DNA of 64,000 nucleotides from the IMG/VR virus record IMGVR_UViG_3300037225_000856, positions 1 to 64,000 of that record. The stretch is one strand, 5' to 3'. The translations under genes were made by a program, and so were the position numbers. A model generated the notes under the pieces. The model did no database searches, had not been told where the DNA came from, and saw only the letters and a list, made by a program, of their open reading frames with translations. Positions 7,719 through 62,169 of this stretch are shown here, one piece after another. Positions within the stretch are counted from its first letter, which is position 1; each line of letters starts with the position of its first letter. This DNA is from a virus.

Positions 7719-7719
7719 A

Positions 7720-8424
7720 ATGATAGTAGGAAATGGAATGATAGCATCTGAATTTAATTTACATAGTGAAGATTATGTGGATTATCTTATATTTGCATCT
7801 GGCGTTTCAAATTCAAAAGAAATTAACAAAAATGAGTTTGATCGTGAAAAAAAAATAATATTAGAAATAATTAATAAATATAAAAGATTAAAACTAATTT
7901 ATTTTAGTAGTATATTAGTTGAAATTTCAAAAAATAAATATTACACTGCAAAATTAGAAATTGAAGAATTAATAAAAACTTACGCAGCTAACTATATTAT
8001 TTTTAGACTTCCACAAATAATTGGTAACCGTGGTAATTCAAACAATTTAGTAAATTTTTTAAAACATTCTATAAATAATGATTTGGAAATTATTGTGTAT
8101 AATGATGTTGAAAGAGCATTGATAGATATTGAAGACTTAGTAATGGTTGTCAATTATTGTAAAAATAAAATTAATCATGAAATATTAAACTTTTCTGGTA
8201 TTGAAAAATTAAATGTAATTATATTATGTAACTTAATTGGTAATATTTTAAATAAAAAACCAATTTTAAAAATTACAAACGATGTCGAAAATAATAATTG
8301 GAACACTAAAAACAGTGACATTGTAAATGAAGCAATTGTTAAAATTAACAATGTGGAATATACAAATAGAGTGTTGAGAAAATATATTAAAAATGAAAGT
8401 AATAACATTAAGTTTTGCATATGA
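7720..8424 (+). CDS. Extended SDR-like NAD(P)-dependent epimerase/reductase
   Basis: About 234 residues. The start at 7720 is chosen because MIVGNGMIASEF forms the expected first strand with a GxGxxA nucleotide-binding loop; an in-frame ATG at 7663 lies inside the methyltransferase gene. KLIYFSSIL carries the Ser of the catalytic site and YYTAK gives YxxxK. The protein is shorter than typical sugar-nucleotide epimerases (about 310 residues), and the C-terminal substrate domain is reduced, so the substrate is unclear. Codon use is extremely AT-rich, as in the adjacent genes. Confidence 0.65.
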   Translation: MIVGNGMIASEFNLHSEDYVDYLIFASGVSNSKEINKNEFDREKKIILEIINKYKRLKLIYFSSILVEISKNKYYTAKLEIEELIKTYAANYIIFRLPQIIGNRGNSNNLVNFLKHSINNDLEIIVYNDVERALIDIEDLVMVVNYCKNKINHEILNFSGIEKLNVIILCNLIGNILNKKPILKITNDVENNNWNTKNSDIVNEAIVKINNVEYTNRVLRKYIKNESNNIKFCI

Positions 8425-9160
8425 TATGATTAAATTGTTTGAAATTGGAAGATTTTGGGCAAAAGATATATATGTTAACAAAGAATTTATTTCTGAATAT
8501 TCGGCAGCATCATATGCGACATTTATTGATAAAAATCCAAGTTTAATGCTTCATTTATATACTGATGATGTTGAGTTGATGAAAGAAAAAATATCAAAAT
8601 ACAATATAAACACAAATAATATTATTTATTATGACTATAGTGAAGAATTAAACAAATATGCTGGCAATTTAAAATATAGTTTTGACATTTTACACAATTT
8701 TATTCTTTTTGCGAGAAGCAAAACTGAATACACAATTAAAATTGATTGTGATTTAACTTTTTTCAATGCAATTCCAACAATGAATAATGACAGTAAAGAT
8801 GTTTTGGTTTGGAAATATGAAAGAAAATTAATGCAGGGAAATCCTAAAATGGGTGAAATTATGTCATCGATCAATACAGTGGGTAATATTGATTATCCCA
8901 TATATAATGTTGGTCTTTTGGGAATGCCACTAATGTTTCAAGTAAATGATTTAGACCAAGTTTATCATAAAATGGCTGCTGTTGATATTATTGATGTTTC
9001 TGATTTAAAGGTACATTCGTGGCATTGTGCAGAACAAACAGCAAAAAATTGGATATTTTATAAATATAAATATAATGTAATTCAAACATATAATATTGTT
9101 AACCACCATTTTTCAGAGAAAAAACAATGTATATTTGACGCTAAATATTTACTAAAATGA
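8393..9160 (+). CDS. GT-A glycosyltransferase, GT8-like
   Basis: 255 residues beginning KVITLSFAY. LHLYTDD and TIKIDCDLTFF are placed as in nucleotide-diphospho-sugar transferases, with DCD as the DxD metal-binding motif. SWHCAEQTAKNWIFYKY may form the acceptor region (EQ helix). It overlaps the preceding SDR gene by 32 bp and the next by 4 bp, showing tight translational packing. The sugar is unknown. Confidence 0.55.
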   Translation: MKVITLSFAYDMIKLFEIGRFWAKDIYVNKEFISEYSAASYATFIDKNPSLMLHLYTDDVELMKEKISKYNINTNNIIYYDYSEELNKYAGNLKYSFDILHNFILFARSKTEYTIKIDCDLTFFNAIPTMNNDSKDVLVWKYERKLMQGNPKMGEIMSSINTVGNIDYPIYNVGLLGMPLMFQVNDLDQVYHKMAAVDIIDVSDLKVHSWHCAEQTAKNWIFYKYKYNVIQTYNIVNHHFSEKKQCIFDAKYLLK

Positions 9161-9981
9161 TAAGTTTTATAACTACAGGCAGAGATGATGATTATGGCGG
9201 TGGCGGTAATTTTTTAGATAGATTATACATATCACTGTCAAAAAATATTGAAATATTAGAACGATTTAATGTTGAGTATGAATATTTGGTTGTTGAATGG
9301 AGTCCAATAAAAAATTATCTAATTAATAATGAAAAATTTCGACAATTATTTTTAAATAAAAATTTAATTGATGTTGTTGTTAAATCAAATGTTGCAGTAA
9401 GTGAAAATCTTAATTCAAATAAATTTTTTGAATATTTTGCAAAAAATGTTGGTGTCAGAATAAGTAAATATGAGGTATTAATATTACTTAATTCAGATAT
9501 TATCATACCACCAGAAACAATGAGAGAAATAATTAATTTATTTCATGAGAAACATGATGAGAAGCATTTTTATAGATTAATAAATAGAGTTCAAATAGAT
9601 ATTAATTTAAATATATTAAAAAGGGAATGTATTCATTATCCGAATAATCCAGATGCTATTATTTGCGGTTATTGCTCTGGTGATATTTTAATTATAAATA
9701 AAAATTTTTTTATTGAATCTGGTGATGGGTATGATGAAACAAATATGGGACATCGGGTTACTTCACAAACTGGTATGGATGGTGAAATTCTTTGGAATTT
9801 ACATCATAAAGGAATTACATTAATGTTTCTACAAGCAGATTATTGGCATATTAATCATAGTAAAATTGGTGTTCATACCGATGGTATTTATAATACAAAC
9901 GGATATGTGAATAAACCAAATTGGGGATTTATTAATTATCCTAAAAATATAATATCGAAAAAATTAATAGAAATTGGTTAA
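9157..9981 (+). CDS. Glycosyltransferase, GT2-like
   Basis: 274 residues. It opens ISFITTGRDDDYGGGGNFLDRL, a form of the 'FxxTxRNDxYGG' start seen in a group of GT-A proteins, followed by YLVVEWSP and VLILLNSDIIIPPETM, where NSD replaces DxD. The segment TGMDGEILWNLHHKG could supply the catalytic acid. It is followed with a one-base overlap by the frameshifted transferase at 9981. It is assigned as a sugar transferase of the operon with unknown donor. Confidence 0.6.
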   Translation: MISFITTGRDDDYGGGGNFLDRLYISLSKNIEILERFNVEYEYLVVEWSPIKNYLINNEKFRQLFLNKNLIDVVVKSNVAVSENLNSNKFFEYFAKNVGVRISKYEVLILLNSDIIIPPETMREIINLFHEKHDEKHFYRLINRVQIDINLNILKRECIHYPNNPDAIICGYCSGDILIINKNFFIESGDGYDETNMGHRVTSQTGMDGEILWNLHHKGITLMFLQADYWHINHSKIGVHTDGIYNTNGYVNKPNWGFINYPKNIISKKLIEIG

Positions 9982-41635: not shown

Positions 41636-42727
41636 ATGAAGGGATTAACAACATATGAATTTATAATGAAAGCAGGATTTGTGCATGGTGATAGGTATGA
41701 TTATTCTAAAGTTGATTATATTAATAATAGGACAATGGTAGATATTATATGCAAAGAACATGGATTATTTCAACAAAATGCTTCAAACCATCTTGCTGGT
41801 CAGAATTGTCCTATTTGTATGGGTAGGGGAAAAGGTAATAGTGAGAGATTTATTAATGCTGCAAAACAAAAACATGAAGATAAATATGATTATTCTTTAG
41901 TTAAATATAAAGGTAGTAAATCTAAAATAAATATTATTTGTAAAGAACATGGTGTTTTCGAGCAAAGACCCACAAGACATTTATGCGGTGATGGTTGTCC
42001 TAAATGCAATGGTGGTGTTAAATCAAATCATAATGAATTTATTCAGAAGGCAAATGTTATACATGATAATAAATATGATTATTCATTAGTTGATTATATT
42101 AATTCAATAACAAAGGTTAAAATAATTTGTAAAAAACATGGTATTTTTGAAATGAAACCAAATTCTCATTTATGTGGACAAGGTTGCTATATGTGTGGTA
42201 TTGAAAAAAATACTCATACCACAGCACAATTTATTGAAAAAGCACAAAAAATTCACGGTAATATATATGATTATAACTTAGTTGATTATATTCATAATAA
42301 CATAAAAATAAAAATAATTTGTCGTGAACATGGAATTTTTGAACAAAAACCCTATTCGCATTTAAATGGTAGAGGTTGTTCTAAATGTAAAACCAAATCA
42401 AAAGGTGAATTATTTATTGCCAATTGGCTAAGTCAAAATGTTATTAGTTTCGAAGTTCAAAAATCATTTATTGATTGTAAAAATGTGCTGCCTTTAAGAT
42501 ATGATTTTTATTTACCTAAATATAATATGCTTATTGAATATGACGGTGAACCCCATTTTAGAGAAGTTGCTTATTTGGGCGGTAAAAGAGGTTTTGAATT
42601 AAGACAAACCAATGATAAATTAAAAACAGATTATGCAATAAACAATAACATTAATTTATTGCGTATTCCTTATACTGAAAGAAAATGTCTTTCAAAAATA
42701 TTAAAAAATAATATTGTAACTACTTAA
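41636..42727 (+). CDS. Vsr-like homing endonuclease with four zinc-ribbon repeats
   Basis: 363 residues. Four repeats of about 60 residues (FI.KA...H...YDYS.V.Y, then IICKEHG.F.Q....HL.G..C..C), each with a Cys/His zinc-binding pattern, form the DNA-recognition part (DUF723-like). The C-terminal GELFIANWLSQN, PLRYDFYLPKYNMLIEYDGEPHF and KTDYAINNNINLLRIPY segment resembles the Vsr/EDxHD nuclease fold, with D and EYDGxxH as catalytic candidates. It lies directly upstream of a fibre gene, a frequent target area of mobile endonucleases. Confidence 0.78.
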   Translation: MKGLTTYEFIMKAGFVHGDRYDYSKVDYINNRTMVDIICKEHGLFQQNASNHLAGQNCPICMGRGKGNSERFINAAKQKHEDKYDYSLVKYKGSKSKINIICKEHGVFEQRPTRHLCGDGCPKCNGGVKSNHNEFIQKANVIHDNKYDYSLVDYINSITKVKIICKKHGIFEMKPNSHLCGQGCYMCGIEKNTHTTAQFIEKAQKIHGNIYDYNLVDYIHNNIKIKIICREHGIFEQKPYSHLNGRGCSKCKTKSKGELFIANWLSQNVISFEVQKSFIDCKNVLPLRYDFYLPKYNMLIEYDGEPHFREVAYLGGKRGFELRQTNDKLKTDYAINNNINLLRIPYTERKCLSKILKNNIVTT

Positions 42728-42739
42728 TAATCAAAGCAT

Positions 42740-43861
42740 ATGACCTTCTTCAGTCGTCCCGATCTCAGTTCGGTCCAATTTAAACAATTACCCGATTCAA
42801 TATTAAATTTGTCTGGTCAAACCCGAATAGAAACAACAACAGGTTTAACACTTGCAAATGGTAGTGGCAGCACTATTATTATTAATGCAAAAGGTAGTGA
42901 TCTTGTTGGTAATGTATTAACTTTTGATGGCACTGAAATTAAATTAATGCCATCTACATCATCGGGTATTGTAGTATATAATCCGCCATATAGATCGCCA
43001 GCATCTATAACATTAGGTGGAATTATTACTGGAACTACGCTTACAGGAAGAACAATATCTTCAATTATTGAACAATTATTAGTTCCAACAGTAAATCCTA
43101 CTTTAAAAGCACCTTCAAGCACATTTAATGTTTCATTATCAAACCCATATGAAATAGGTTCTATTGTAAGTGTAGTTGGTTGTACATGTCTTAGTGTAGG
43201 TTCTATTAATCCACAATATTCTTCAGCGTCATCATGCAGAAGTAATGGTGCAATATCGCATAATTATATTGATTTTAATGGTGGTACTTGTAGTTGTTTT
43301 GGAAATACATGTACTTGTACACGCTCATTACCAGCATATACGGTTGTTGCAGGTATAAGAACAGCATATGGTTCTGTTTCATATTGTGCAGGTGTTCAAC
43401 CTAAAAATAATTGCGGTTCAAACTATTTAAGTCCATTAACTTCTGGAACTACAACTCCAATAGGTGTTATTGTTTGTGGTTTATATCCATATTTTTATGG
43501 CAAAGTTGCAAGTGGTGGTTGTCCTGCAGGTGTTAATAGACCAACACCAACGTGTGCATTGGTAATTAGCGGAACAAAATGTGTTTGTGACAGTAGTAGT
43601 ATTATATATATTAATTTTAATAGTACCTCAGATGATTATTTGTTTTTTGCAATACCAAGTGCTTCAGCAGCTAAAACATGTTGGTATATAAATGCACTTA
43701 ATAATGGTGCAATTGGTGGTGCAGTAAGTGCTGGTGGTAATTTATTCCCAGCACTTGCTTCTGTGAATCCAGTAACAACAGCATGTTGGGCAGGTCAAAC
43801 ATATAATGTTTATATAAGTAATTATCAATCGGCAGTAAATACATTAATGACAATATATTAA
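42740..43861 (+). CDS. Cys-rich virion protein of fibre module A
   Basis: 373 residues. The N-terminus (RPDLSSVQFKQLPDSILNLSGQT) resembles the attachment ends of tail proteins in this phage type. The middle is unusually rich in Cys (VVGCTCLSVG; GTCSCFGNTCTCT). The C-terminal ~100 residues (DDYLFFAIPSASAAKTCWYINALNNGAIGG and CWAGQTYNVYIS) are closely similar to the end of the protein at 48147, so the two are paralogues. No signal peptide. Probably a structural partner of the long fibre that follows. Function unknown. Confidence 0.6.
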   Translation: MTFFSRPDLSSVQFKQLPDSILNLSGQTRIETTTGLTLANGSGSTIIINAKGSDLVGNVLTFDGTEIKLMPSTSSGIVVYNPPYRSPASITLGGIITGTTLTGRTISSIIEQLLVPTVNPTLKAPSSTFNVSLSNPYEIGSIVSVVGCTCLSVGSINPQYSSASSCRSNGAISHNYIDFNGGTCSCFGNTCTCTRSLPAYTVVAGIRTAYGSVSYCAGVQPKNNCGSNYLSPLTSGTTTPIGVIVCGLYPYFYGKVASGGCPAGVNRPTPTCALVISGTKCVCDSSSIIYINFNSTSDDYLFFAIPSASAAKTCWYINALNNGAIGGAVSAGGNLFPALASVNPVTTACWAGQTYNVYISNYQSAVNTLMTIY

Positions 43862-43886
43862 TAATAAAAATTAAAAATATAAAAAA

Positions 43887-46802
43887 ATGGCAATAATATT
43901 AAATGATAATCTTAAAATAAATGCAGGTAAACCAATTGATTCGAGATATTTAACAACTGGAAATACTATATATACTTCAACTGGTGCAACCAATTCAGCA
44001 ATTCCAATTCCTTTAAGGTATACTGGTTTAACAGTTAATATTTTAGGCACTGAATATTGGTATAAAACTGGCGTTGCTGACATTAATTTAATTCAGAAAA
44101 TATATAATAGTATAATACCAATAGGTAATTTTATTACTGGTGCGACAAATATTGGATTTTTTAGTGGACATACAAGTATTCAAACACTTAATATTACAAC
44201 ATCAAGTGGCATAATTGGAAATTATTTAGATTATACTGGTAGTTATTCTTCATTATATAATTATTATTATAGAGGTTTTGATCAAAAAATTCATATTGGT
44301 ACACCAAATGATAACATACCAAAAAGAGGTTATGTAAAAACAGTATTACCAGTTGAATCATGGATTTGGAATCAATATACTGGTGGTAGTGGAAATTTAC
44401 TTGGTTGGATTTTTGTTCAAGGTGATATTTCATTAAAAATTGGACAAACTGTAAATGGTGTGATATATTATACTGGTTCGTCTCAAGTTTATACACAAAC
44501 TGCATGGAGTGCTCCAGCTAATAATGGAGGAAAAGCAGTTATTAATTCAGTTCTTGGCAGTTTAACAACTGGTACTACAATAAGTATTGGAGGACCGGTT
44601 TTTGCCACTAAAACCAATAATGTATTGAATTTTAGAACAATTCAAAGTAAAACTCCAAATATATTGAATATAAGTTCTGATGAAGCATTTATTTATTTAT
44701 CTGGCACAACACAAGCAGCACAAATAAATCAAGGTATTAATATTGGTAGTGGCGTTGGTATTTATGGAGGTTTAAGTGGTACATCTCTTCAATTTAGAAG
44801 TATTGTTGGTAGTGGTAATACAACAGTTGGTTTAAATGGAAATACAGTCGCAATTTATTCAAGCGGTGGTGGTACAATTACAGGTGCAACAAATGGTTTA
44901 AATATTAACGGTAAAAATGTTCAATTAGGTGGCACTATAACTATACCTACAATAATAAAAGATTCGAGAATAGTGCCTGTTGGTATTGAATATGACAGTA
45001 ATTATAATGTTACATTTAGTAGTCGTTCATTAGTAGATAAAGCATACGTAGATGCTGTTGCAGCAGGACTTGTTCCTAAATTAGCTGTTGAAGTTGCAAC
45101 AACAAGTAATATTACATTAAGTGGCATTTTAACAATTGATGGTGTTTCTACAATAAATAATATGAGAGTATTAGTTAAAAATCAAATAAGTGGTCAAACG
45201 AATGGAATATATGTTGTTAATAGTGGTGGTACTTGGAGTCGTTCAATAGATTTTAATTTTGTTCCTTCTGGTGAAGTTGTTCAAGGTGTATTAGTACCTG
45301 TTATTAGCGGTAATACACAAAAAAATACTCTTTGGGTATTAGTAACACCAAATCCAATTATTAGCGGAGTTACTTCAATAATATTTGGTTTATTTAGTAG
45401 TTCAAATTTTATTGCAGGTACTGGTATAAATATTGGGGGTAGTACGATATCAACAGATACACTAACTCAATCAATAATTAATTCTGCAATTACTGGTGCT
45501 ACAAACGGGTTAACAAAAATTAGTAATAGAAAAGTTTGTCTTGGTGGTACATTAAGTGATGACGTTACTATTAATTTAAATTCATGTAAAATAAATTTTA
45601 TTAATGGTAGTGTAGTATCATGTGGTGCAACAAGTCACGGTTTTGATAGTTATAATGATTATAAATTGAGTGGTCAGACATTTATAAGTGTACCTAGTAA
45701 AAATTTTGCTTGTGGTAATTTAGCTGTTGGTTATCAAGCACTTTATAATAACACAACTGGTTATGGTAATTTAGCTATTGGTTATGGTGCACTTTTAAAT
45801 AATACTTGTGGTAATCGTAATATTGCAATTGGTTATAATGCACTTTGTTCTAATACAACAGGAAGTACTAATATTGCAATTGGTAATTATGCACTTTTAC
45901 GTAATATTTATGGTTGTAATAATATTGCAATTGGTTGTAGTGCACTTTCTTATAACACTTGTGGTTGCAATAACATTGCTAATGGTTATGGTACACTTTT
46001 ATGTAATAAATTTGGTTGTAATAATATTGCAATTGGTTGTAGTGCACTTCTTTATAATACTTGTGGTTGTAATAACATTGCTAATGGTGGTTTTGCACTT
46101 TATAATAATATTAGTGGTTCTTCTAATATTGCAATTGGATGTGGTACACTTTTATATAATAAATTTGGTTGTAATAATATTGCAATTGGTTATCAAACAC
46201 TTTGTAGTAATATAACTGGAAGTACTAATATTGCAATAGGATATACTGCAGGATATTATGAAACAGGTTCAAGTAAATTATATATTGCAAATTCATCCAC
46301 AACTCATCCATTAATTTTTGGTGATTTTTCAACTAACTGTGCAATAATTTACGGTGCATTTAAAACAAGTGGTGCTACATCACTCCTTGTAGCTCCTGCT
46401 GCTGGTACAACCTCTGATGCAATATTGGTTTGGAATAGTAGTGATAAGTTAATTAAAACAATGCCATATATAAGTGGTGGTACTGGCGGGGGTGATAAAA
46501 ATAATATATATTCCAAAACCATAATTACTGGCAATACATTATTAACAACAGGTAGCACATATGTGATATTAGCATCAGGCACTTCAATAACAATTACATT
46601 ACCTACAACACCACTTACCGGACAAGTATTTAAAATTAAAGATGCCTATGGCAATGCATTGACTAACAATATAATTATTAATGCTGGTTCAGGTAGAACA
46701 ATTGATGGCTCACAATGTGCATTAATTAATACAAATTATGGTGCTCTTGAACTTATGTTTGGTGCTACATGTAAATGGTTTAATTTGGCTTTTATTAACT
46801 AA
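43887..46802 (+). CDS. Long tail fibre of module A with 17-residue repeats
   Basis: 971 residues. The N-terminal ~75 residues (MAIILNDNLKINAGKPIDSRYL...LTVNILGTEYWYKTGV) are shared with the fibre at 49196. They are followed by Gly/Thr-rich beta-rich modules, including a SLVDKAYVDAVAAGLVPK segment seen in phage fibres. Next come about eleven 17-residue repeats (xNIAIGxxALxxNxxGx, from residue 610) like the YadA-head/beta-roll family, and a C-terminal TSLLVAPAAGTTSDAILVW plus strand-rich cap. It is expected to be a trimeric fibre for host recognition. Confidence 0.72.
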   Translation: MAIILNDNLKINAGKPIDSRYLTTGNTIYTSTGATNSAIPIPLRYTGLTVNILGTEYWYKTGVADINLIQKIYNSIIPIGNFITGATNIGFFSGHTSIQTLNITTSSGIIGNYLDYTGSYSSLYNYYYRGFDQKIHIGTPNDNIPKRGYVKTVLPVESWIWNQYTGGSGNLLGWIFVQGDISLKIGQTVNGVIYYTGSSQVYTQTAWSAPANNGGKAVINSVLGSLTTGTTISIGGPVFATKTNNVLNFRTIQSKTPNILNISSDEAFIYLSGTTQAAQINQGINIGSGVGIYGGLSGTSLQFRSIVGSGNTTVGLNGNTVAIYSSGGGTITGATNGLNINGKNVQLGGTITIPTIIKDSRIVPVGIEYDSNYNVTFSSRSLVDKAYVDAVAAGLVPKLAVEVATTSNITLSGILTIDGVSTINNMRVLVKNQISGQTNGIYVVNSGGTWSRSIDFNFVPSGEVVQGVLVPVISGNTQKNTLWVLVTPNPIISGVTSIIFGLFSSSNFIAGTGINIGGSTISTDTLTQSIINSAITGATNGLTKISNRKVCLGGTLSDDVTINLNSCKINFINGSVVSCGATSHGFDSYNDYKLSGQTFISVPSKNFACGNLAVGYQALYNNTTGYGNLAIGYGALLNNTCGNRNIAIGYNALCSNTTGSTNIAIGNYALLRNIYGCNNIAIGCSALSYNTCGCNNIANGYGTLLCNKFGCNNIAIGCSALLYNTCGCNNIANGGFALYNNISGSSNIAIGCGTLLYNKFGCNNIAIGYQTLCSNITGSTNIAIGYTAGYYETGSSKLYIANSSTTHPLIFGDFSTNCAIIYGAFKTSGATSLLVAPAAGTTSDAILVWNSSDKLIKTMPYISGGTGGGDKNNIYSKTIITGNTLLTTGSTYVILASGTSITITLPTTPLTGQVFKIKDAYGNALTNNIIINAGSGRTIDGSQCALINTNYGALELMFGATCKWFNLAFIN
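45714..46274 (+). repeat. Eleven 51-bp repeats encoding a 17-residue beta-roll unit
   Basis: Consensus of the unit is x-N-I-A-I-G-x-x-A-L-x-x-N-x-x-G-x. Codons are so similar that the repeats stay visible at DNA level (GGTTGTAATAATATTGCAAT). Units 5-7 and 9 carry extra Cys (NNIAIGCSALLYNTCGC). Confidence 0.8.
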
Positions 46803-46869
46803 TAATTTATAATTTATAATTTATTGGTGATAATAATTAAAATGAAAATTATTATATTCTTATTTTTTT

Positions 46870-46909
46870 CTTGTAAATTGAGTTTTTCATGATTATCTTT
46901 GTATTTATA
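46870..46909 (+). promoter_or_regulatory. Promoter of the GT9-like gene
   Basis: cTTG (46870-46873), 20-bp spacer, TATCTTTG (46894-46901), directly overlapping GTATTTATA (46901-46909). The ATG at 46947 is about 38 bp further on. Both host-like and phage-type boxes are fused, as at 41292. Confidence 0.6.
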
Positions 46910-46946
46910 AAAAAATATAAAAAATTATAAATTAAATTAAAACTCA

Positions 46947-47885
46947 ATGATAGTAAACAGTAAAAAAACAGATAATGATAGGTATGTAATCGCTGAAATT
47001 TTTGGCGGACATGGAAAAACCATCGTTTCAACTGCAGTAATTCGTGCAATTAAGAAGCAGTATCCTGATTATAAAATAATTGTAATTGCCAGTTGGGATG
47101 GAAGTTTTTTTTATAATCCTGATGTTTTTAGGTTCTTTTTACAAAATCAAATACCACAATACTTCAAAGAGGATTATCTTAAAGAAGATACTATTATAAT
47201 GAAACATGATCCTTATAATGAAACAAATCATATTCTTAGAAAAGAACATCTGACTGAGACTTGGTGTAAAATGTTTAATGTACCTTATGATGGTTATAAA
47301 CCTAAAATCTATTTAAACCCACGTGAACTTGAAATAGCGAGAGATAAAATAAAACCAGATAATCGTCCTATTATGCTTCTCCAGACACACGGAGGAAGCA
47401 ATCAACAATATTCGAAAAAATCTTGGTATAGGGATATGCCTATAGAGACAGCGCAAAAATTAGTAAATTATTTTAATAAGTCCTACCGTATACTTCATAT
47501 TAAGTCACCAGAGCAACCAATTTTACAAGGTGTTGAACCTCTTACTTTACCATATAGAGAATTATATGCCGTATTTCCACTTTCAACAAAAAGACTGTTC
47601 ATAGATTCTTTTGCTCAACATGTTGCAGCAGCATTGGATTTACCAAGCACTGTTGTTTGGATTGGTAATTCACCCAAAGTATTTGGTTATCCTGAAAATA
47701 TAAATATATTGCCGAATGCGAATATTATAAACAATCTTGATAAATTTACATACTTAGTTGATGATATTTCTGGCATGGTGCAAGCCTTCCCGTATGATAC
47801 TGTTAATTTGTTCGATATAAATAAAATTATTGAAGCAGTAAACAAACAACCAGTTCCAGATGTTTCAAAGATGAATTTCATGTAA
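46947..47885 (+). CDS. GT9/heptosyltransferase-like glycosyltransferase
   Basis: 312 residues. IAEIFGGHGKTIVSTAVIRAIKKQYPDYKIIVIA is the N-terminal Rossmann start of GT9 enzymes (GDxxxxxPxIxxLxxxxPxAxI). LLQTHGGSNQQYSKKSW is at the position of the donor-binding strand with basic residues, and LFIDSFAQHVAAALDLPSTVVWIG corresponds to the DSGxxHxAxAxxxPxxxLxG motif. GT9 members mostly use ADP-heptose. It has its own promoter between the two fibre modules. Because this phage also has an ADP-heptose pathway, a heptosyltransferase role is attractive but not shown. Confidence 0.68.
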   Translation: MIVNSKKTDNDRYVIAEIFGGHGKTIVSTAVIRAIKKQYPDYKIIVIASWDGSFFYNPDVFRFFLQNQIPQYFKEDYLKEDTIIMKHDPYNETNHILRKEHLTETWCKMFNVPYDGYKPKIYLNPRELEIARDKIKPDNRPIMLLQTHGGSNQQYSKKSWYRDMPIETAQKLVNYFNKSYRILHIKSPEQPILQGVEPLTLPYRELYAVFPLSTKRLFIDSFAQHVAAALDLPSTVVWIGNSPKVFGYPENINILPNANIINNLDKFTYLVDDISGMVQAFPYDTVNLFDINKIIEAVNKQPVPDVSKMNFM

Positions 47886-47929
47886 AGAGAATTAGTCATC
47901 ATTTTTAATGTTGTTTATTTTTTTAAAAA

Positions 47930-47953
47930 CCCATTGTTATCAGTGGGTTTTTT
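47930..47953 (+). terminator. Rho-independent terminator
   Basis: CCCATTG (47930-47936) pairs with CAGTGGG (47941-47947) with loop TTAT, followed by TTTTTTG. It ends the GT9-like transcript. Confidence 0.85.
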
Positions 47954-48146
47954 GTTTTGGTTGTCATTTGTCAATTATTGTTTTAAAAGTATTTATAGAC
48001 ATTAAGATTAATTAATGTGAAAATAATGGTTCAATTATATTTATATTAATATTTTAAAGCTGTAATGGTAATTATTAATTAATAAAAACTATTTATAAAT
48101 AACTAATTAAAACTATTTATAGATAGATGATTTAAATATAAAAAAT
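47954..48146 (+). promoter_or_regulatory. Leader with repeated (G/C)TATTTATA boxes
   Basis: No gene. GTATTTATA at 47989-47997 and two CTATTTATA copies at 48089-48097 and 48113-48121 with shared flanks (AAAACTATTTATA). Multiple phage-type promoter boxes before fibre module B may give strong late expression. Confidence 0.45.
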
Positions 48147-49136
48147 ATGGGTTCTAATACAAAGATAATTTTAAGTGATAGTAAAGCATATCAAACAACT
48201 GGTCAAACACTAACATTATCAGGACATACAAAAATAGCAACTGTCGGTGATTTAAAATATGTAACACATCCAACATTTAGTGAAGATACTCAAATTATTG
48301 ATAAAAAATACGTTGATGATAGTGTTGTAACTACAGGAAGTACTATATATAATTTAGTATCACCATCTACAGTCACTGTTGGCGGGTTGACATCTGGAAC
48401 TGTATTAACAGGTAAAACTTCAAATGAAATACTTAAAGAAATTTTAGTAATGTATTTATTACCTTCTTTCAGTAGTTTTTGTAATAATGTTAGTACTCCT
48501 CTTGAAGTTGGTACTACAATAAGTGGTTCAAAATCATTTAGTTTTGGTTTTGCTAATGCAGGTAATGTTTGTGCAAATACTTTATCTATCAGAGACGTTA
48601 GTATAGGCAGTAATATTGCAACTGCTTGTCCAATATCATCACCTCAATCTGCAACTATTAATGCAAAAACATTTGCTTCTTGTGGTAATACTCAAGTTTG
48701 GTGTGGCTGTGCTACAAATACATGTGGTGCTCAAATAGGTTCAAGTAGTTATACAATAACAGGATTGTTACCTTATTATTGGGGTGTGTGCACATGCCCG
48801 GGTGCTGCTGGTGCTGGTCGTCCAACAGCAACTTGCGCTATGGTAATTGGTGGAACTAAAATACTTGCAAGCAGTGAAGCAATAAGTATTAATTTTAATA
48901 GTGGTGTTAATGATTATTTATGGTTTGCAATTCCTGCAACCGTTGCTGCTAAGACTTGTTGGTGTGTAAATGGTATTAATAATGGTGCAATTGGTGGCGG
49001 AGTAAGTCCTGCATGTAATCTTTTCCCTGCTCCTAATTCAATTAGTGTTACTACTGCTTGTTGGAGTGGTTGTAATTATTGTGTTTATATTAGTAATAAA
49101 CAAACATGTGCAACATCATCAATGTCATTAACATAA
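48147..49136 (+). CDS. Cys-rich virion protein of fibre module B
   Basis: 329 residues. The start (TKIILSDSKAYQTTGQTLTLSGHTKIATVGDLKYVT) with KKYVDD resembles phage tail-fibre N-termini. The middle is Cys-rich (CGNTQVWCGCATNTCG; WGVCTCPGAAG). The C-terminal region (NDYLWFAIPATVAAKTCW, NNGAIGGGVSPACNLFPA and CWSGCNYCVYISN) is paralogous to that of the protein at 42740. It is followed 60 bp later by a long fibre, repeating the order of module A. Confidence 0.6.
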   Translation: MGSNTKIILSDSKAYQTTGQTLTLSGHTKIATVGDLKYVTHPTFSEDTQIIDKKYVDDSVVTTGSTIYNLVSPSTVTVGGLTSGTVLTGKTSNEILKEILVMYLLPSFSSFCNNVSTPLEVGTTISGSKSFSFGFANAGNVCANTLSIRDVSIGSNIATACPISSPQSATINAKTFASCGNTQVWCGCATNTCGAQIGSSSYTITGLLPYYWGVCTCPGAAGAGRPTATCAMVIGGTKILASSEAISINFNSGVNDYLWFAIPATVAAKTCWCVNGINNGAIGGGVSPACNLFPAPNSISVTTACWSGCNYCVYISNKQTCATSSMSLT

Positions 49137-49146
49137 TAAAAATTAA

Positions 49147-49186
49147 AAGATATTTATAAAAACAAAAAGATATTTATAAAAACAAA
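49147..49186 (+). repeat. 20-bp tandem repeat carrying GATATTTATA boxes
   Basis: Two adjacent copies of AAGATATTTATAAAAACAAA, just before the ATG at 49196. Each has a TATTTATA core as in the phage-type promoter box, so a duplicated promoter or an mRNA leader element is likely. Confidence 0.55.
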
Positions 49187-49195
49187 ATATAGAAA

Positions 49196-52100
49196 ATGGC
49201 AATAGTTTTAAACGATAACTTAAAAATTAATGTTGGTAATCCGATTGATTCTAAATATTTAAATTCTTTAAATCAACCATATACTGGTGTTACTGCTGTT
49301 AATACGGCAATAGTATTGTCACAAAGATATGTTGGTTTAACAGTTAATGTAAATAAAATAGAATATTGGTATAAAACAGGTGTTACTGATACTGCTTTAG
49401 TTGTTAAAGATAGTGGTATTGCAAATACCGGACTTACTATAGCAATTAATGGTTTAACAAAGGTTGGTAATGTTGTTAAATTAGGTGGTACATTAACTGG
49501 AGATACTACAATTAATTTAGCAACACATAATTTAAATTTAACTAATGGTAATTTAAATTTAACAAATGGCAATATACTATTAATAACAGGTAGTTCAATA
49601 CAATGGAGCGATGGTTCATATATTACAAATACTATTAATGGAATAAGTATAATTGATGATGATTTAATTGTTAGTGGTAATACAACAAGCGTTAAATTTA
49701 TTGAAAATGGTGTTTGTCTTGCAAATAAATATCTTGCAACTGGAGCAACAAGTGTTAATTCTAAAGCATTATGTGGTTGTATACCAAGTTGTTTTTTAGG
49801 TGCAAATTCTTGTGCAGTAGACAGTGCTAAATTAGGTAATAAATTACCAGCTTATTATCTTAATACTGGCACTACTATTATTTGTGCTTGTGATAGTGCT
49901 AAATTGAATAATAAATTACCTGCATATTATCTTAATACTGGTTCAACAGCTTTATGTGCTACTTGTGCAGGTAACGCTTCAACATTAGTCGGTTGTACAC
50001 CAAATTCATTTTTATTGTCTGGTGGTACAGCAGTAAATTCATCGAAATTAGGTAGTCATTTACCTGCATATTATCTTAATACAGGTAGTACAGCAATATG
50101 TGCAACAACAGCAATTAATTCAAAAGCATTATGTGGTTGTGTACCTGCAAGTTTTCTTCTTAGTGGTGGTACAGCTAAAAATTCATTATGTTTAGGCGGT
50201 AATTTAGCTAATACTTATGCATCACTTGCTTCACCTAATTTTACAACATGTATATGTACTCCCGTAATGTGTTCAACAGGTGTAGTTAAAGGAACAATAA
50301 TAAGTGGTTCAAGTTGTGTTGAATCACCAGTTATTCAATTAACAACAGGTGCTGGAGCAGGATGTGTTTTCACGTCAAATGCTACTGGTTGTGGTATTTG
50401 GTGTACTCCTGTTGCTGGTGGAATTCTATGGAGTGGTTCAACTGTTAATGGTGTTGGCACTTATTTGTCCGCATCAAAAATTTATTCAAATGTTAATATG
50501 ACATTTGATGGCACAAAATTGGGTGTAACTGGCAATATATGTGCAAGCACTTGCTTATGTTCTTCAATTACAATTGGTACATCATGTGTTTGCAGTCCTA
50601 TTATATTAGGTTCTAGTTGTGTATGTGGTTTTATTGTTTGTAGCAATACGTGTATTCTTGCAGGTACTTGTGTTACAGGTACAATTATGTGCGCATCTTC
50701 ATGTGTGAGAAGCCCATTAATTTCTGGTGGAACTGTTTGTGGTTTAACTGCTGTATGTGGTGGAATACATTGCGCAACTACTTGTTTTGCTGGTTCAGGT
50801 GCTGGTTTAACAGGCACTGCAGCCAGTTTAACTGTTGGTTGTGCGACTTGTGCTGTTGGAGCAAAAAATCTTTGTGGCTGTGTACCTACATCATTTTTAC
50901 TTAGTGGTGGTACTGCTGTATGTTCAACCTGTGCTGGCAATGCAAGTACCGTGGCTGGTTGTACTCCTTCATGTTTCTTGGGAGTAACCGCATGTGCTTG
51001 TGATTCGAAATGTTTAGGTGGTCATTTACCTGCATATTATCTCAATACTGGTAGTACTGCAATATGTGCAACTTGTGCAATAGGTGCTAAAAACCTTTGT
51101 GGTTGTGTTCCAGCATCGTTTTTACTTAGTGGTGGTACTGCAAAAAATAGTACTTGTTTAAACGGACAATTAGCAAGTTATTATGCACCAATAGCAAGTC
51201 CTAATTTTACAACTTGTATTTGCGCACCTATTGTTTGTGCAACTACTTGTTTTGTTGGTAGTGGTGCAGGTTTAACTGGCACTGCAGTTTCACTAAAAAG
51301 TAATGATTCTTGTTGTTTAAATGGAGTATTAGCTGCAGGTTATCTTTTATCTGGTGGTACAGCTAAAAATTCATTATGTTTAGGTGGTAAATTACCTGCA
51401 TATTACCTTAATACAGGTACTACAATTACTTGTGCAAATGATTCAGCAAAATTAAATAATAGATTACCAGCATATTATCTTAATACTGGCAGTACTGCAT
51501 TATGTGCAACTTGCGCTGGTAATGCATCAACATTAGTAGCTTGCACACCATCATGTTTTTTAGGTGCTACTGCTTGTGCAGTTGATAGTGCAAAATTGGG
51601 TAATAAATTACCTGCTTATTATCTTAATACTGGTAGTACAGCAATATGTGCAACAACTGCAGGAAATGCATTATGTTTAGGTGGTTCACTTGCTGCTTGT
51701 TATGCTACAAAAGCATTAGCAATTACTGGTGCTACAAGTTTAGGTAGTGGATGTGTTGTTTATTCAACAGTTGCTAATAATAACTTAAAATTTAAGTCAT
51801 TAAGTGGTGGAAGTGGTATTTCAATGAGCAGTACTGCAAATGTAATTAATATTTGTGGTATTGGTTGGTCAAATTTAACTAATGGTTCAACTGTTGTTGG
51901 TTGTGGAACAGTTGCAAGTGGCAACACATCTTTATGTAATACATTTATTGGTGTTTGTGCAGGTAAGAATATTAATATTGCTGGTTGTGATAATACTGGT
52001 ATTGGTTTTCAAGCACTTTACAGTAATACTTGTGGTTTTGGCAATGTTGCAATTGGTTTTCAAGCACTTCAAAGTAATATTAGTGGTCTTGGCAATGTTG

Positions 52101-53296
52101 CAAATGGTTATAAAGCACTTCAAAGTAATATTTGTGGTTATAGTAATATTGCAATTGGTACTAATGCACTTCAAGGTAATATTTGTGGTAGTTGTAATAT
52201 TGCAATTGGTCCTGATGCACTTTCTTGTAATAGTTGTGGTTCATATAATGTTGCAATAGGTACTGGTGCACTTGAAGCTAATTGTTGTGGTGGTTGTAAT
52301 GTTGCAATTGGTAATAGTGCACTTGAATTTAATATTAGTGGTGTTGGCAATGTTGCAAATGGTTTTCAAGCACTTTTGTATAATATAATTGGTTCTAATA
52401 ATATTGCAATAGGTTTTAATACACTTCGATGTAATGGAGAGTCTTGTAATAATATTGGAATAGGTTCTAATGCACTTTTTAATAATACTTGTGGTTATTG
52501 CCTTATTGCAATAGGTCATCAAGCATTATGCGGTAATATTTGTGGTTGTGATAATGTTGCTGTGGGATATCAGGCACTTTATTTTAATACTGGTGGTACT
52601 AATAATATTGCAATTGGTTCTCAAACACTTTATTGTAATATAATTGGTTGTGATAATATAGCAAATGGTGTTCAAGCACTTTATTTTAATACTGGTGGTA
52701 ATGATAATATAGCAAATGGTGTTCAAGCACTTTATAATAATATTTGTGGTTGTGATAATATAGCAAATGGTGTTCAAGCACTTTATAATAATACTTGTGG
52801 TAATGCTAATATTGCAAATGGTGTTCAAGCACTTTATAATAATACTTGTGGTAATGCTAATATTGCAAACGGTACTGCTGCACTTCTGAATAATACTTGT
52901 GGTAATGCTAATGTTGTTAATGGTCATTATGCACTTTATTGCAATACTCATGGTTCATATAATGTTGCAATAGGTTATCAAGCAGGGTATTCACAAGTTA
53001 CTGGTAGTACAAGTATATATATAGGTAATTGTGCTGGTTATAACGAAACCGATGGATGTAGACTTTATATTGCAAATTCAGGTACTGTTAATCCATTAAT
53101 TTATGGTGAATTTGATACTAAAAGATTAGTAATAAGTGGTACTACTGAAATTGTAAATGGTACTTGTAATTATTTATATTTAGGCAATAAAGACACTGAT
53201 GGCAGTTGGAGATTTGCAATAAGTGGAGGAACAGACTTCATTATTCAAAAAAGAATAGCAACGGTATGGACAACAAAATTATATGTGTTAGGATAA
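49196..53296 (+). CDS. Very long, Cys-rich repetitive tail fibre of module B
   Basis: 1366 residues, no signal peptide. The N-terminus (MAIVLNDNLKINVGNPIDSKYL...YWYKTGVTD) matches the fibre at 43887. The middle has seven copies of LPAYYLNTG(S/T)T with flanking LSGGTAKNS and CAGNAS blocks, and is very rich in Cys: residues 446-533 contain 16 Cys in 88. Twenty 17-residue beta-roll repeats follow (from residue 932), then GYQAGYSQVTGSTSIYIGN and a compact C-terminal cap (GSWRFAISGGTDFIIQKRIATVWTTKLYV). It is probably a trimeric adhesin. The Cys enrichment is unlike ordinary phage fibres. Confidence 0.72.
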   Translation: MAIVLNDNLKINVGNPIDSKYLNSLNQPYTGVTAVNTAIVLSQRYVGLTVNVNKIEYWYKTGVTDTALVVKDSGIANTGLTIAINGLTKVGNVVKLGGTLTGDTTINLATHNLNLTNGNLNLTNGNILLITGSSIQWSDGSYITNTINGISIIDDDLIVSGNTTSVKFIENGVCLANKYLATGATSVNSKALCGCIPSCFLGANSCAVDSAKLGNKLPAYYLNTGTTIICACDSAKLNNKLPAYYLNTGSTALCATCAGNASTLVGCTPNSFLLSGGTAVNSSKLGSHLPAYYLNTGSTAICATTAINSKALCGCVPASFLLSGGTAKNSLCLGGNLANTYASLASPNFTTCICTPVMCSTGVVKGTIISGSSCVESPVIQLTTGAGAGCVFTSNATGCGIWCTPVAGGILWSGSTVNGVGTYLSASKIYSNVNMTFDGTKLGVTGNICASTCLCSSITIGTSCVCSPIILGSSCVCGFIVCSNTCILAGTCVTGTIMCASSCVRSPLISGGTVCGLTAVCGGIHCATTCFAGSGAGLTGTAASLTVGCATCAVGAKNLCGCVPTSFLLSGGTAVCSTCAGNASTVAGCTPSCFLGVTACACDSKCLGGHLPAYYLNTGSTAICATCAIGAKNLCGCVPASFLLSGGTAKNSTCLNGQLASYYAPIASPNFTTCICAPIVCATTCFVGSGAGLTGTAVSLKSNDSCCLNGVLAAGYLLSGGTAKNSLCLGGKLPAYYLNTGTTITCANDSAKLNNRLPAYYLNTGSTALCATCAGNASTLVACTPSCFLGATACAVDSAKLGNKLPAYYLNTGSTAICATTAGNALCLGGSLAACYATKALAITGATSLGSGCVVYSTVANNNLKFKSLSGGSGISMSSTANVINICGIGWSNLTNGSTVVGCGTVASGNTSLCNTFIGVCAGKNINIAGCDNTGIGFQALYSNTCGFGNVAIGFQALQSNISGLGNVANGYKALQSNICGYSNIAIGTNALQGNICGSCNIAIGPDALSCNSCGSYNVAIGTGALEANCCGGCNVAIGNSALEFNISGVGNVANGFQALLYNIIGSNNIAIGFNTLRCNGESCNNIGIGSNALFNNTCGYCLIAIGHQALCGNICGCDNVAVGYQALYFNTGGTNNIAIGSQTLYCNIIGCDNIANGVQALYFNTGGNDNIANGVQALYNNICGCDNIANGVQALYNNTCGNANIANGVQALYNNTCGNANIANGTAALLNNTCGNANVVNGHYALYCNTHGSYNVAIGYQAGYSQVTGSTSIYIGNCAGYNETDGCRLYIANSGTVNPLIYGEFDTKRLVISGTTEIVNGTCNYLYLGNKDTDGSWRFAISGGTDFIIQKRIATVWTTKLYVLG
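51989..53008 (+). repeat. Twenty 51-bp repeats encoding a 17-residue beta-roll unit
   Basis: Same unit as at 45714. Units 14-18 (DNIANGVQALYNNTCGN type) are nearly identical in nucleotide sequence, showing recent expansion or gene conversion, while earlier units are diverged. Confidence 0.85.
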
Positions 53297-59148: not shown

Positions 59149-59418
59149 GTGAAAAAAATATTAATAATATTATTTTTTGTTTTTATTAGTATTTCAATGC
59201 AAAGAAATACTTCTAATGGTATAAAAATTTATCCTAATCCCATGCATGATCACTTTACAGCTTCTGTTGAAGAAGGTGCATTACCTCCAGTAATAAGAAT
59301 GTATGATATCTCTGGCAAAATTGTTTTAATGAAAAATATAGGAAAATATCTTTCAATTGTAGAAATTTCTTTTAATTTAAAACCGGGTACATATATCGTT
59401 GCTTTTGATGATAATTAA
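59149..59418 (+). CDS. Small exported protein with a type IX secretion (Por) sorting domain
   Basis: 89 residues from a GTG start (59149). KKILIILFFVFISISM is a signal peptide. The rest, GIKIYPNPMHDHFTASV, IRMYDISGKIVLMKNI and FNLKPGTYIVAFDDN, is a complete T9SS type A C-terminal sorting domain (YPNP, DxxGK, L.PGxY). In the host this domain directs cargo through the outer membrane and is normally fused to a large enzyme; here it stands almost alone after the beta-helix gene. Three imperfect copies of TATAGTTCA(C/G)TAATAAT lie at about 59101-59149. Confidence 0.78.
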   Translation: MKKILIILFFVFISISMQRNTSNGIKIYPNPMHDHFTASVEEGALPPVIRMYDISGKIVLMKNIGKYLSIVEISFNLKPGTYIVAFDDN

Positions 59419-60006: not shown

Positions 60007-62169
60007 ATGAAAATAAAATCTATAAAAATATCAGGTCTTTTTATTTCGAGTCATTCTCCATCATTTATTTTGCAATTGACAACAACAACTGCTAATCAAT
60101 CTATAACATTACCACATTTACATGATGATGGTGCTGGTTATAATTATGTTCATAACTATACTGTTGATTATGGCGATAATTCAGGATTAAAAAAAGTAGT
60201 TTCATATAATGACACTAACTGTACTCATATTTATTCTACAATAGGGACCTATTTAGTTAAAATATTTGGGACGTGTGAAACATTTTATACTAATTATACT
60301 TCTATCAGATTACTTATTACCAAGGTATTATCTTGGGGTATGATTGGAATTAAAGTTGTTAGTTTTTGGGGATGTCAATTTATGACATCAATACCCCCTG
60401 ATATATTAGGTAGTTTTTCTTTAGTACAAACTTTTGGCGGAGGCGATACGTGGGGTTCATTTCAGGGATGTAATTCTTTAACGTCACTTCCGTTGGGATT
60501 ATTTGATCATTGTGTGTGGGCGTGGGATTTTGAAAGGACGTTTTACTCGTGTGGTAATTTAATATCAATTCCTGCAGGATTATTTGATCATTGTGTTATG
60601 GCTGCTAACTTTCACTATACCTTTGAAGGATGCAATTCTTTAACTTCAATCCCTGCAGGATTATTTGATCATTGCCCCGATGTTTTCACATTCAGACATC
60701 TGTTTGAGGCAACTGCAATATCATCAATACCTGCGGGTTTATTTGATCATTGCCCCATAGTAACAGATATGTCATATGTTTTTCGAGAATGTATGAACCT
60801 AACCTCGATACCGACTGGATTATTTGATCATTGCCCTCTCGTAGATGATTTTTCCTACGTATTTGAGGGTTGTATTAATATAAGTACTATTCCAGTTGAT
60901 TTATTTAAATATAATCTTAATGTATATAATTTTTACGATGCTTTTCTATCCTGCAGGTCTTTAACTTCAATCCCTGCAGGATTATTTGATCATTGCCAAA
61001 GCGTAACAACATTTTATGAATGTTTTTCACAGTGTTATGCTTTAACTGGTCTAGCTCCAGATTTATGGAATACGCACTCAGGTGCAACAGGAACTTTTTG
61101 TTTTTCTTACGATACTAGCTTATCTAATTATTATGATATACCTATAAACTGGGGAGGTCCTCCTGCAATGAGTGGTGATCCAGCATCATTAATTATATCT
61201 GTAATTTCGCCAACAGAAATAGATCTTTCATGGACGGATAATGTAACTAATGAACAAGGATATAAAATAGAAAGAAGTGTTAATGATGATTCTCACTATT
61301 CAGTTATAGATTCAATTCCAGCAAATTCTAATACATATACGGGTACATCATTAAATCCTTCTACTCTCTATTATTATCGTGTTAGGGCATATAAAGGCAG
61401 TAGTACATATTCTAATTATACTAATAGTGTGTCTGGAACAACGTATGTAATACCAATTGCTCCATCAGGGTTGACTGGTATTCCTTCAACTACAGAAGCA
61501 ACGGTAGATAATTTTACTTTTACTAATAATTCACCTAATTGTGAAGGAATAAGAGTATATATTTCACCTGATGGTGAAGAATGGTTTGAATTTATAGATA
61601 TTTCTCCATTATCTGGAGATGCTACGGGATTTTCTTTGACAAATCTATTTCCTCCCGATTTTTCATTAGGATATAGATATGTTAAAATTTCTGCTTTTAG
61701 TGGAACTCTTGAGTCTGGGTATTCAAATATTGTTGAGGGATCACAGTATGATGCTATAAATACAATTGGTACAGACACCGGTGATTTCACTACATTATAT
61801 GACGCTATTGATTTCATAAATGAAGGAAATGCTATTGGGAATATTCTATATAAGGTCATCGAAAATACTATTGAAACAGAATCAGTAATTCTTTACGAAT
61901 CAGGATATGAAGGTCTAAGCAGTTATGCATCAGTAATTATTTATCCTACAATATCAGGACTAACAATTTCTGGTAATATTGCAGGGGATTTAATAAGATT
62001 TGATCATACTGATAATGTTAATATAGACGGAAGGGTTAATCAGGCAGGGGCAGCGGATTTACATATTACCAATTCTCATTCAGGGTCTCCCGTTGCTGTA
62101 CATATTATCGGAGCCACAAACTCAGATGTTATTAATTGTATTTTAACTGGGTCAAAAATAATTGAATAA
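60007..62169 (+). CDS. BspA-type LRR protein with PKD-like and FN3 domains
   Basis: 720 residues, no signal peptide. The N-terminal ~100 residues look like a PKD/beta-sandwich domain (YTVDYGDNS, HIYSTIGTYLVKIFG). Then come eight or more BspA/TpLRR repeats with core LTSIPAGLFDHC..V..F...F..C (about residues 125-350). A fibronectin III domain follows (TEIDLSWTDNVTNEQGYKIERS, TLYYYRVRAYKGSSTYSN), another sandwich, and the start of a beta-helix-like C-terminus (TLYDAIDFINEGNAIG, VINCILTGSKI). Probably an adhesin or receptor-binding protein of the virion. Confidence 0.7.
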   Translation: MKIKSIKISGLFISSHSPSFILQLTTTTANQSITLPHLHDDGAGYNYVHNYTVDYGDNSGLKKVVSYNDTNCTHIYSTIGTYLVKIFGTCETFYTNYTSIRLLITKVLSWGMIGIKVVSFWGCQFMTSIPPDILGSFSLVQTFGGGDTWGSFQGCNSLTSLPLGLFDHCVWAWDFERTFYSCGNLISIPAGLFDHCVMAANFHYTFEGCNSLTSIPAGLFDHCPDVFTFRHLFEATAISSIPAGLFDHCPIVTDMSYVFRECMNLTSIPTGLFDHCPLVDDFSYVFEGCINISTIPVDLFKYNLNVYNFYDAFLSCRSLTSIPAGLFDHCQSVTTFYECFSQCYALTGLAPDLWNTHSGATGTFCFSYDTSLSNYYDIPINWGGPPAMSGDPASLIISVISPTEIDLSWTDNVTNEQGYKIERSVNDDSHYSVIDSIPANSNTYTGTSLNPSTLYYYRVRAYKGSSTYSNYTNSVSGTTYVIPIAPSGLTGIPSTTEATVDNFTFTNNSPNCEGIRVYISPDGEEWFEFIDISPLSGDATGFSLTNLFPPDFSLGYRYVKISAFSGTLESGYSNIVEGSQYDAINTIGTDTGDFTTLYDAIDFINEGNAIGNILYKVIENTIETESVILYESGYEGLSSYASVIIYPTISGLTISGNIAGDLIRFDHTDNVNIDGRVNQAGAADLHITNSHSGSPVAVHIIGATNSDVINCILTGSKIIE

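Follow-up and report, generated by a model that had tools for sequence, protein, structure and literature searches.

Cysteine-rich tail fibres in a phage lineage: a probable dispersed cysteine coat kept in amount rather than in position

The DNA analysed here, a stretch of 64,000 nucleotides called the window throughout (positions 1 to 64,000 of IMG/VR virus record IMGVR_UViG_3300037225_000856, which has 112,403 bases), encodes an unusually cysteine-rich tail fibre in the open reading frame (ORF) at 49196-53296. The enrichment was confirmed, and comparison of related sequences indicates that it is a non-random tail-fibre property at the level of a phage lineage, for which a thiol-disulfide chemistry appears plausible. 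The interpretation proposed in an earlier note on this DNA (disulfides formed after release, binding of metal or a cofactor, or attachment to host thiols) is supported in part. The favoured reading is that cysteines form a dispersed coat on the distal fibre shaft, located at variable columns, whose amount is kept while the individual positions turn over. A probability of about 0.8 was given to this anatomy, lowered from 0.85 because the two non-repeat families that were aligned are one paralogous family. The fibre gene is organised as follows.

49196-53296, plus strand: cysteine-rich tail-fibre ORF, open and intact, 1366 residues, 102 cysteines (7.47%)
49196-49714, plus strand: cysteine-free N-terminal part, residues 1-173, of which residues 1-75 are a module also present in other fibres of the lineage
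49715-51865, plus strand: shaft of repeated fibre modules, residues ~174-890, with cysteine throughout
50531-50794, plus strand: residues 446-533, 16 cysteines in 88 residues
52025-52993, plus strand: array of the 17-residue repeat NxxGxxN[IV]A[IN]Gxx[AT]Lxx, 18 matched units, residues 944-1266

Since residues 1-173 are free of cysteine and the last 46 residues hold only one, the cysteine belongs to the shaft and the repeat region. The 16 cysteines first counted in residues 446-533 were reproduced exactly, and this segment ties with residues 443-530 as the densest 88-residue stretch of the protein. Cysteine was encoded by 92 TGT and 10 TGC codons, and from its base composition at each codon position the gene would be expected to have 4.1% of such TGY codons, versus the 7.47% cysteine found. 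Along the chain, pairs of cysteines at a spacing of 17, the repeat period, were in excess (19 versus 8.6 expected, z 3.9), the motif CxC was mildly so (13 versus 8.6, z 1.7), and immediate CC neighbours were too few (2 versus 8.5 expected, z -2.4).

Repeat arrays with at least 3% cysteine were by definition considered rich, and the full set comprised 132 arrays, with 1230 repeats from 40 loci. In the rich set, cysteine was found at columns 3, 5, 6, 12, 13, 16 and 17 of the repeat in 6.8, 19.3, 9.3, 11.1, 13.7, 13.6 and 18.8% of cases, respectively, and in only 0-1.7% at each of the remaining ten columns. However, loci L010-L041 had been found with a pattern that forced one cysteine at column 3, and a recount was made in the 41 rich arrays (341 repeats, 15 loci) of a repeat scan performed without regard to cysteine. 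In these, columns 5, 6, 12, 13, 16 and 17 had 12.9, 7.9, 7.9, 14.1, 12.3 and 20.2% cysteine, column 3 had 0.9%, and the rest had 0-1.5%. Column 3 of the full rich set mostly reflects selection bias together with the window lineage, and a rule of six columns stands. The difference in cysteine between these seven columns and the remaining ten was of the same order in the window's own lineage (13.6% versus 0.24%), in a second phage group (14.8% versus 0.33%) and in unassigned loci (12.2% versus 0.26%). Moreover, the entropy of each column in 86 cysteine-poor arrays predicted its cysteine in rich arrays (Spearman 0.74), and at the variable columns T, A, D, S and E were less frequent in rich than in poor arrays, C and F being more frequent. 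The same habit, with the core avoided, was observed in another repeat type: the relative L005:10673-12760 has YadA-head repeats (PF05658), in which cysteine stands at column 11 in 10 of 30 units and never at columns 2-6.

In the window array itself, cysteine stands at column 3 in 11 of 18 units, versus 0.6% of 178 units from L046-L125. The earlier suggestion that cysteine takes the place of Ser, Thr or Asn held at this column, where relatives have T in 64% and S in 10%; elsewhere it held in part, S and N being enriched opposite cysteine in two alignments of neighbouring protein families (described below) together with other residues.

The cysteines did not behave as partners of one another. 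In the 132 arrays, a cysteine was followed by another at its own column in the next coil 169 times versus 168.3 expected (standard deviation 9.2), with no excess of stacking; column 3 alone stacked slightly (21 versus 13.4 expected, z 3.0, uncorrected for many tests). Pairs within one repeat fell below expectation, whether this was computed by array (391 versus 461, z -4.0) or by locus (391 versus 480, z -4.7). With this self-avoidance, the absence of stacking and the poor conservation of position described below, the stacked cysteine ladders and metal sites that had been envisaged found no support. Cysteine does occupy variable, probably exposed positions, but it is not scattered without pattern, its confinement to a few columns being a strong one.

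The fibre matched PHROG profiles of virion structural, tail spike and tail fibre proteins (phrog_6002, E 1.4e-69; phrog_4636, E 3.9e-41), and the repeat core N1, G4, N7, A9, G11, A14 and L15 is present in its array. An AlphaFold2 single-chain model of residues 940-1290 (predicted local distance difference test, pLDDT, 78.8) had short strands that recur with the 17-residue period, and the repeat segment is accordingly modelled as a beta-solenoid. A sequence search of the PDB gave no match for the fibre or for its partner protein at 48147-49136, Foldseek found nothing in the PDB for the repeat model at E < 0.001, and tblastn of fibre residues 1-535 and of the partner gave no match in named phages. 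VIA-align of the repeat model returned Z scores of 11.0-15.6 among the best 50 matches listed, many of which were beta-helix enzymes and tailspikes aligned over model residues ~129-351; these matches are read as reflecting the common solenoid arrangement only. The same model gave 23 matches at E < 0.001 in BFVD, several of them without names, which included FhaB-like adhesion proteins of Bodo saltans virus and a 'Chlorovirus glyco repeat' protein of Tenacibaculum phage pT24.

The fibre belongs to a cluster (42740-53296) that comprises at least four proteins. Its other genes, and one possible virion gene further downstream, are the following.

42740-43861, plus strand: first cysteine-rich protein of the cluster (the leader), 373 residues, 16 cysteines (4.3%)
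43887-46802, plus strand: fibre paralogue that shares the N-terminal module and the repeats, 971 residues, 21 cysteines (2.2%)
46947-47885, plus strand: gene inside the cluster, 1 cysteine in 312 residues, weak glycosyltransferase-9 match (PF01075, E 0.054, below the cut-off)
48147-49136, plus strand: partner protein, 329 residues, 17 cysteines (5.2%), with 6-19 cysteines in aligned relatives
60007-62169, plus strand: possible further virion protein, 720 residues, 20 cysteines (2.8%), with fn3 and tail-type PHROG matches; its membership of the cysteine-rich set is uncertain

The observation that neighbouring proteins share the enrichment was borne out (5.2, 4.3 and 2.2% for partner, leader and paralogous fibre), the non-fibre-like ORFs of the window averaging 1.34%. 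A regional DNA bias was rejected as the cause, since the gene at 46947-47885, inside the cluster, has a single cysteine. No PHROG family and no Pfam family (for the partner, none above the cut-off) was found for the leader or the partner. These two proteins are paralogues, and their family is multicopy in the cluster of each relative, some copies being fused to other fibre parts (L272:12135-14234, L264:5834-8674).

The family provided a view of cysteine outside the repeats. Each of the 11 cluster regions that were read contained a homologue of the leader, of similar length and with 12-25 cysteines. Twelve leader-type proteins were aligned, as were ten partner-type proteins, picked by length and place and without the two fused relatives; L005:2024-2998 (25% identity) was dropped from one alignment and the cysteine-free L006:9180-10235 from the other. 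The probability that a cysteine was matched by a cysteine was 0.35 in the leader set, where cysteine ranked 15th among the 20 residues, and 0.32 in the partner set, where it ranked last, for a reference of 0.46 over all residues and 0.79-0.85 for Trp. Cysteine counts nevertheless stayed at 12-25 and 6-19 per protein in the two sets. Judged by sequence, the alignments are one family seen twice and not two independent families, and different paralogues may be mixed in the partner set, an effect that would lower all its match figures alike. The N-terminal module is poor in cysteine: the first 75 residues of 17 proteins contained 10 cysteines in 1275 residues (none in 11 of the 17), versus 3.40% beyond the module, one of the 17 being without any cysteine.

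The lineage itself was traced through a gp6-like baseplate gene (L008:7143-8993, phrog_219), for which 80 of 130 loci, with 70-95% identity, were kept. In the window's virus record this baseplate protein has 0.16% cysteine, and an ORF of 1854 residues near its gene has 0.54%. The closest named-phage records to the gp6-like protein showed only 26-28% identity and included Flavobacterium phage immuto, whose fibre-like frames have 0-0.34% cysteine. The fibre N-terminal module was then sought in 29 records, 25 of them found by gp6 (the longer contigs out of the 80 loci) and 4 others; it was present in 14 of the 29, of which 10 were among the 25. Regions of 20 kb around the fibres were read in 11 records, G056 being left out with matches resembling those of G054. 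Eight of the 11 (G050, G051, G052, G054, G057, G058, G059 and G060) had been found through gp6 alone, and in all eight of these module-bearing relatives the fibre-like ORFs had 2.06-3.43% cysteine, versus 0.61-1.34% for the other ORFs of the same regions. The fibre-like ORFs of G007, G008 and G010, first met via the cysteine pattern, had 2.92-3.67%. G004 carries the module, though gp6 found no match in it at E 0.001, and its fibres had 0-0.3%. One ORF in a relative's fibre cluster, L263:2676-3293, is denser than the window fibre, with 11.2% cysteine in 205 residues.

Across the wider repeat family the trait is uncommon. The scan made without regard to cysteine yielded at least 120 stretches; among the matches listed, 77 loci had arrays of at least 3 units, with less than 1% cysteine in 46, 1-3% in 19 and at least 3% in 12. 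The fibre ORFs that hold the repeat pattern in L046-L125 (n=77) had a median of 0.35% and a maximum of 4.6%, and the fibre-like frames had 0-1.5% in all 11 phage records, named or public, whose fibres matched. The expected enrichment across homologues was thus recovered within the lineage (8 of 8 relatives) but not across the repeat family (46 of the 77 listed loci below 1%). Viral stretches that contain the cysteine form of the repeat numbered 32. Bacterial genome contigs gave 5 pattern matches, none of which was a repeat fibre: one lay in a frame of 184 residues with an NxCGxxNIAIG peptide that was not repeat-fibre-like, and for the other four no frame above 150 residues held the peptide. 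The cysteine-rich fibre trait is real and uncommon, and was seen only in viral contigs.

A second, distinct group of large phages (G005, G006 and G009) also has cysteine-rich arrays, with class I ribonucleotide reductase (RNR) and glutaredoxin genes close together. Its gp6 matches were short and weak in G005 and G006 (34-41% over ~90 residues), and G009 had none; G006 had entered via the scan unselected for cysteine. This group implies that the trait arose or moved more than once, as far as groups of records, rather than a tree, can indicate. Phage size alone was considered as a cause and was weakened by large records with cysteine-poor fibres (S-CAM4, P-SSM2, immuto and LR756500). Among 58 unselected loci (12 rich and 46 poor, the 19 intermediate ones left out), 5 of 5 on contigs above 65 kb were rich, and the median contig sizes of rich and poor loci did not differ significantly (p 0.11).

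Several observations weigh against the proposed coat or limit its reach. G053, a member of the gp6 lineage without the module, has two fibre-like ORFs, of only 1.8% and 0.4% cysteine, that lie close to the end of a contig; for G055, three stretches were read and none of them contained a fibre cluster. Single module fibres of the lineage can be free of cysteine (L045:8954-10432, none in 492 residues). Over 62 loci, the cysteine of repeat ORFs and that of other fibre-like ORFs were weakly correlated (Spearman 0.24, p 0.064), the median of the other fibre-like ORFs being 1.80% where repeats were rich (17 loci) and 0.39% where they were poor (30 loci). Some cysteine columns are conserved, three in 10 of 12 and one in 9 of 12 leader-type proteins and one in 9 of 10 partner-type proteins, and some fixed disulfides may coexist with the dispersed majority. 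The structure model of the partner reached a pLDDT of only 49, and the exposure of the fibre cysteines is deduced from how variable their columns are and from the model of a single chain, rather than from the structure of a trimer. The RNR large subunits of G001, G050, G054, G055 and G058 do not indicate oxygen use, and R2 was not found in G001, the only own-lineage record of those five searched for it. Finally, no match to a thiol-oxidising enzyme was obtained in a single search with PF04777, whose control was silent too.

The variable positions are probably solvent-exposed, as their variability and the single-chain model suggest, and selection probably acts on the density of reactive thiol and not on particular bonds. 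A mechanism of thiol-disulfide chemistry between molecules was tentatively proposed on this basis, at somewhat less than even odds. The fibres would be synthesised in reduced form within the cytoplasm of the host, and their exposed thiols would react between molecules once the cell has lysed. One option is that opportunistic, keratin-like disulfide links form between fibre chains and neighbouring fibres; the other is that mixed disulfides and soft contacts form with thiol- or metal-bearing cell surfaces. Either route would lead to a stronger hold or to durability. Two suggestions of the earlier note, that disulfides form once the phage is released and that the fibre attaches to host thiols, are both possible, and the sequence cannot tell them apart. 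A more specific version, which we regard as doubtful, is multivalent covalent adhesion by a lineage of large uncultured phages, in which a coat of free thiols, selected by quantity and free of position, forms mixed disulfides with thiols of the host surface or matrix, and would have arisen or been acquired more than once; such a coat would be a phage counterpart of thiolated adhesive polymers.

The main rival is strict anoxia combined with permissive drift, according to which surface cysteine is harmless without oxygen in reducing habitats and fills variable positions without function. The location of cysteine at variable, turning-over positions agrees with this account, and the RNR of the window's own lineage (open frames of 854-1265 residues; no R2 found in G001) fits hosts that do not use oxygen. 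However, the 12-20% cysteine at single columns exceeds the 4.1% TGY given by the base composition of the window gene, and drift should neither keep 12-25 cysteines per protein among proteins ~35-54% identical to the window's nor produce self-avoidance within repeats. Moreover, the gp6-like baseplate protein, also a part of the virion, has not followed, and four records with cysteine-rich fibres carry oxygen-dependent class I RNR. The small subunit of this enzyme exceeded the cut-off in 4 of 50 records, all four with cysteine-rich fibres, and NrdD in 0 of 50; a fifth class I match, in G004, was below the cut-off and contained stops. The 50 records searched are mostly cysteine-rich or short, and these counts do not bear on any association with the trait. 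Strict anoxia is nevertheless weakened by the four class I enzymes, and oxygen-using hosts are possible for phages with cysteine-rich fibres; drift is judged unlikely, though ahead of the explanations that follow.

A defined structural chemistry, in which specific disulfides within or between chains, or metal sites built from cysteine ladders and CxC clusters, stabilise the fibre, would agree with the excess at spacing 17 and the mild CxC excess in the window fibre, with its richness at column 3, with the slight stacking of that column and with the few conserved cysteine columns. The spacing of 17 is explained by column preference, however, and with stacking at expectation, pairs within repeats below it and positions poorly conserved, this explanation was considered improbable. 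Less probable still is S-linked decoration, in which cysteines serve as attachment sites for sugars or lipids, perhaps via a phage cluster of sugar genes, so that density matters and sites can move. Dispersed, moving sites kept in amount are what would be expected of decoration sites, and many genes at 2-25 kb of the window resemble sugar-metabolism genes by eye, with three glycosyltransferase family 2 (GT2) matches in the record; but GT2 does not track the trait, being absent from G005, with a 5.25% cysteine fibre, and present four times in cysteine-poor G004. That TGT and TGC are not read as cysteine in this phage is scarcely credible: the four CxxC motifs of ORF 41636-42727 use both codons, TGY occurs at ordinary rates in other genes, and the same cysteine columns recur in distinct phages. 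A gene for cysteine supply was also considered and rejected, 3'-phosphoadenosine-5'-phosphosulfate (PAPS) reductase being found in 0 of 29 records; thioredoxin was present in 7 of 29, cysteine-poor immuto among them, and glutaredoxin in 3 of 27 (G005, G006 and G009), with no consistent link to the trait.

Extracellular proteins usually avoid exposed unpaired cysteine, and where cysteine is conserved the usual interpretation is a fixed disulfide or a metal site. Here, in one phage lineage and at least one distinct group, it is the number of cysteines and not their location that is maintained, which suggests, as far as sequences can, a use of sulphur chemistry at the fibre surface that has yet to be described. 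The fibres and spikes with GNxNIAIG repeats (PHROG 6002, 23837 and 4636; for example in cyanophages, SPO1 gp2.52 and immuto) have the same kind of short repeat with a conserved core, but the named or public ones examined are poor in cysteine, unlike the window fibre. The YadA head (PF05658) is a related short repeat with a conserved SVA core, and ordinary YadA heads are not known to be cysteine-rich; the window repeat has 17 residues, and the window fibre gave no PF05658 match at E 0.1. Tail-fibre tips of the T4 gp37 type bind metal via HxH and are alike in having many residues able to bind metal; unlike them, the present fibre has no regular motif or clustering, and its cysteines avoid each other. 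Searches of the literature, limited to open-licence papers, gave no paper on cysteine-rich phage fibres among the matches listed, and the sample identifiers led to no paper.

The nearest described cysteine-rich virion is that of Agrobacterium phage Milano. Its structural proteins are reported to have 2.1% cysteine, defined disulfides lock the tube, sheath and baseplate, and fibre Cys38 is bonded to baseplate proteins, the authors speculating that reduction near the host permits contraction (PMC10811340). Both are tailed phages with many cysteines in virion proteins. In contrast to the defined bonds of Milano, cysteine is here spread over the length of the distal fibre and reaches 7.5%; the cysteine-free N-terminal part offers no counterpart of Cys38 for a bond to the baseplate, and the one baseplate protein identified, gp6-like, is the cysteine-poor one described above. 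Should the thiols be free, or form cross-links from one molecule to another, thiol-disulfide exchange would be a chemistry of phage adsorption or durability beyond the defined network of Milano.

Other features were observed in the same records. The RNR large-subunit frames of G001 (6445-9219, 1265 residues) and G058 (194881-197520, 1203 residues) are longer than the 854-876 residues of relatives, and may therefore contain an in-frame insertion, for example an intein. ORF 41636-42727 has a treble-clef/CxxC, zinc-finger-like character (DUF4379) and is cysteine-rich for this ordinary reason, and further cysteine-rich ORFs of zinc-finger type seem to recur in the record. About 30 consecutive genes at 1942-25089 include many that resemble, by eye, enzymes of sugar-nucleotide metabolism or glycosyl transfer. 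The ORF at 59149-59418 encodes 89 residues with a C-terminal sorting domain of type IX secretion (Por_Secre_tail, E 1.3e-7) and is directly preceded by a beta-helix ORF of 910 residues, and the ORFs at 53461, 54531 and 56381 have N termini that resemble signal peptides by eye. The sorting domain and these N termini suggest that some phage-encoded proteins may be exported by a host of the Bacteroidota type.

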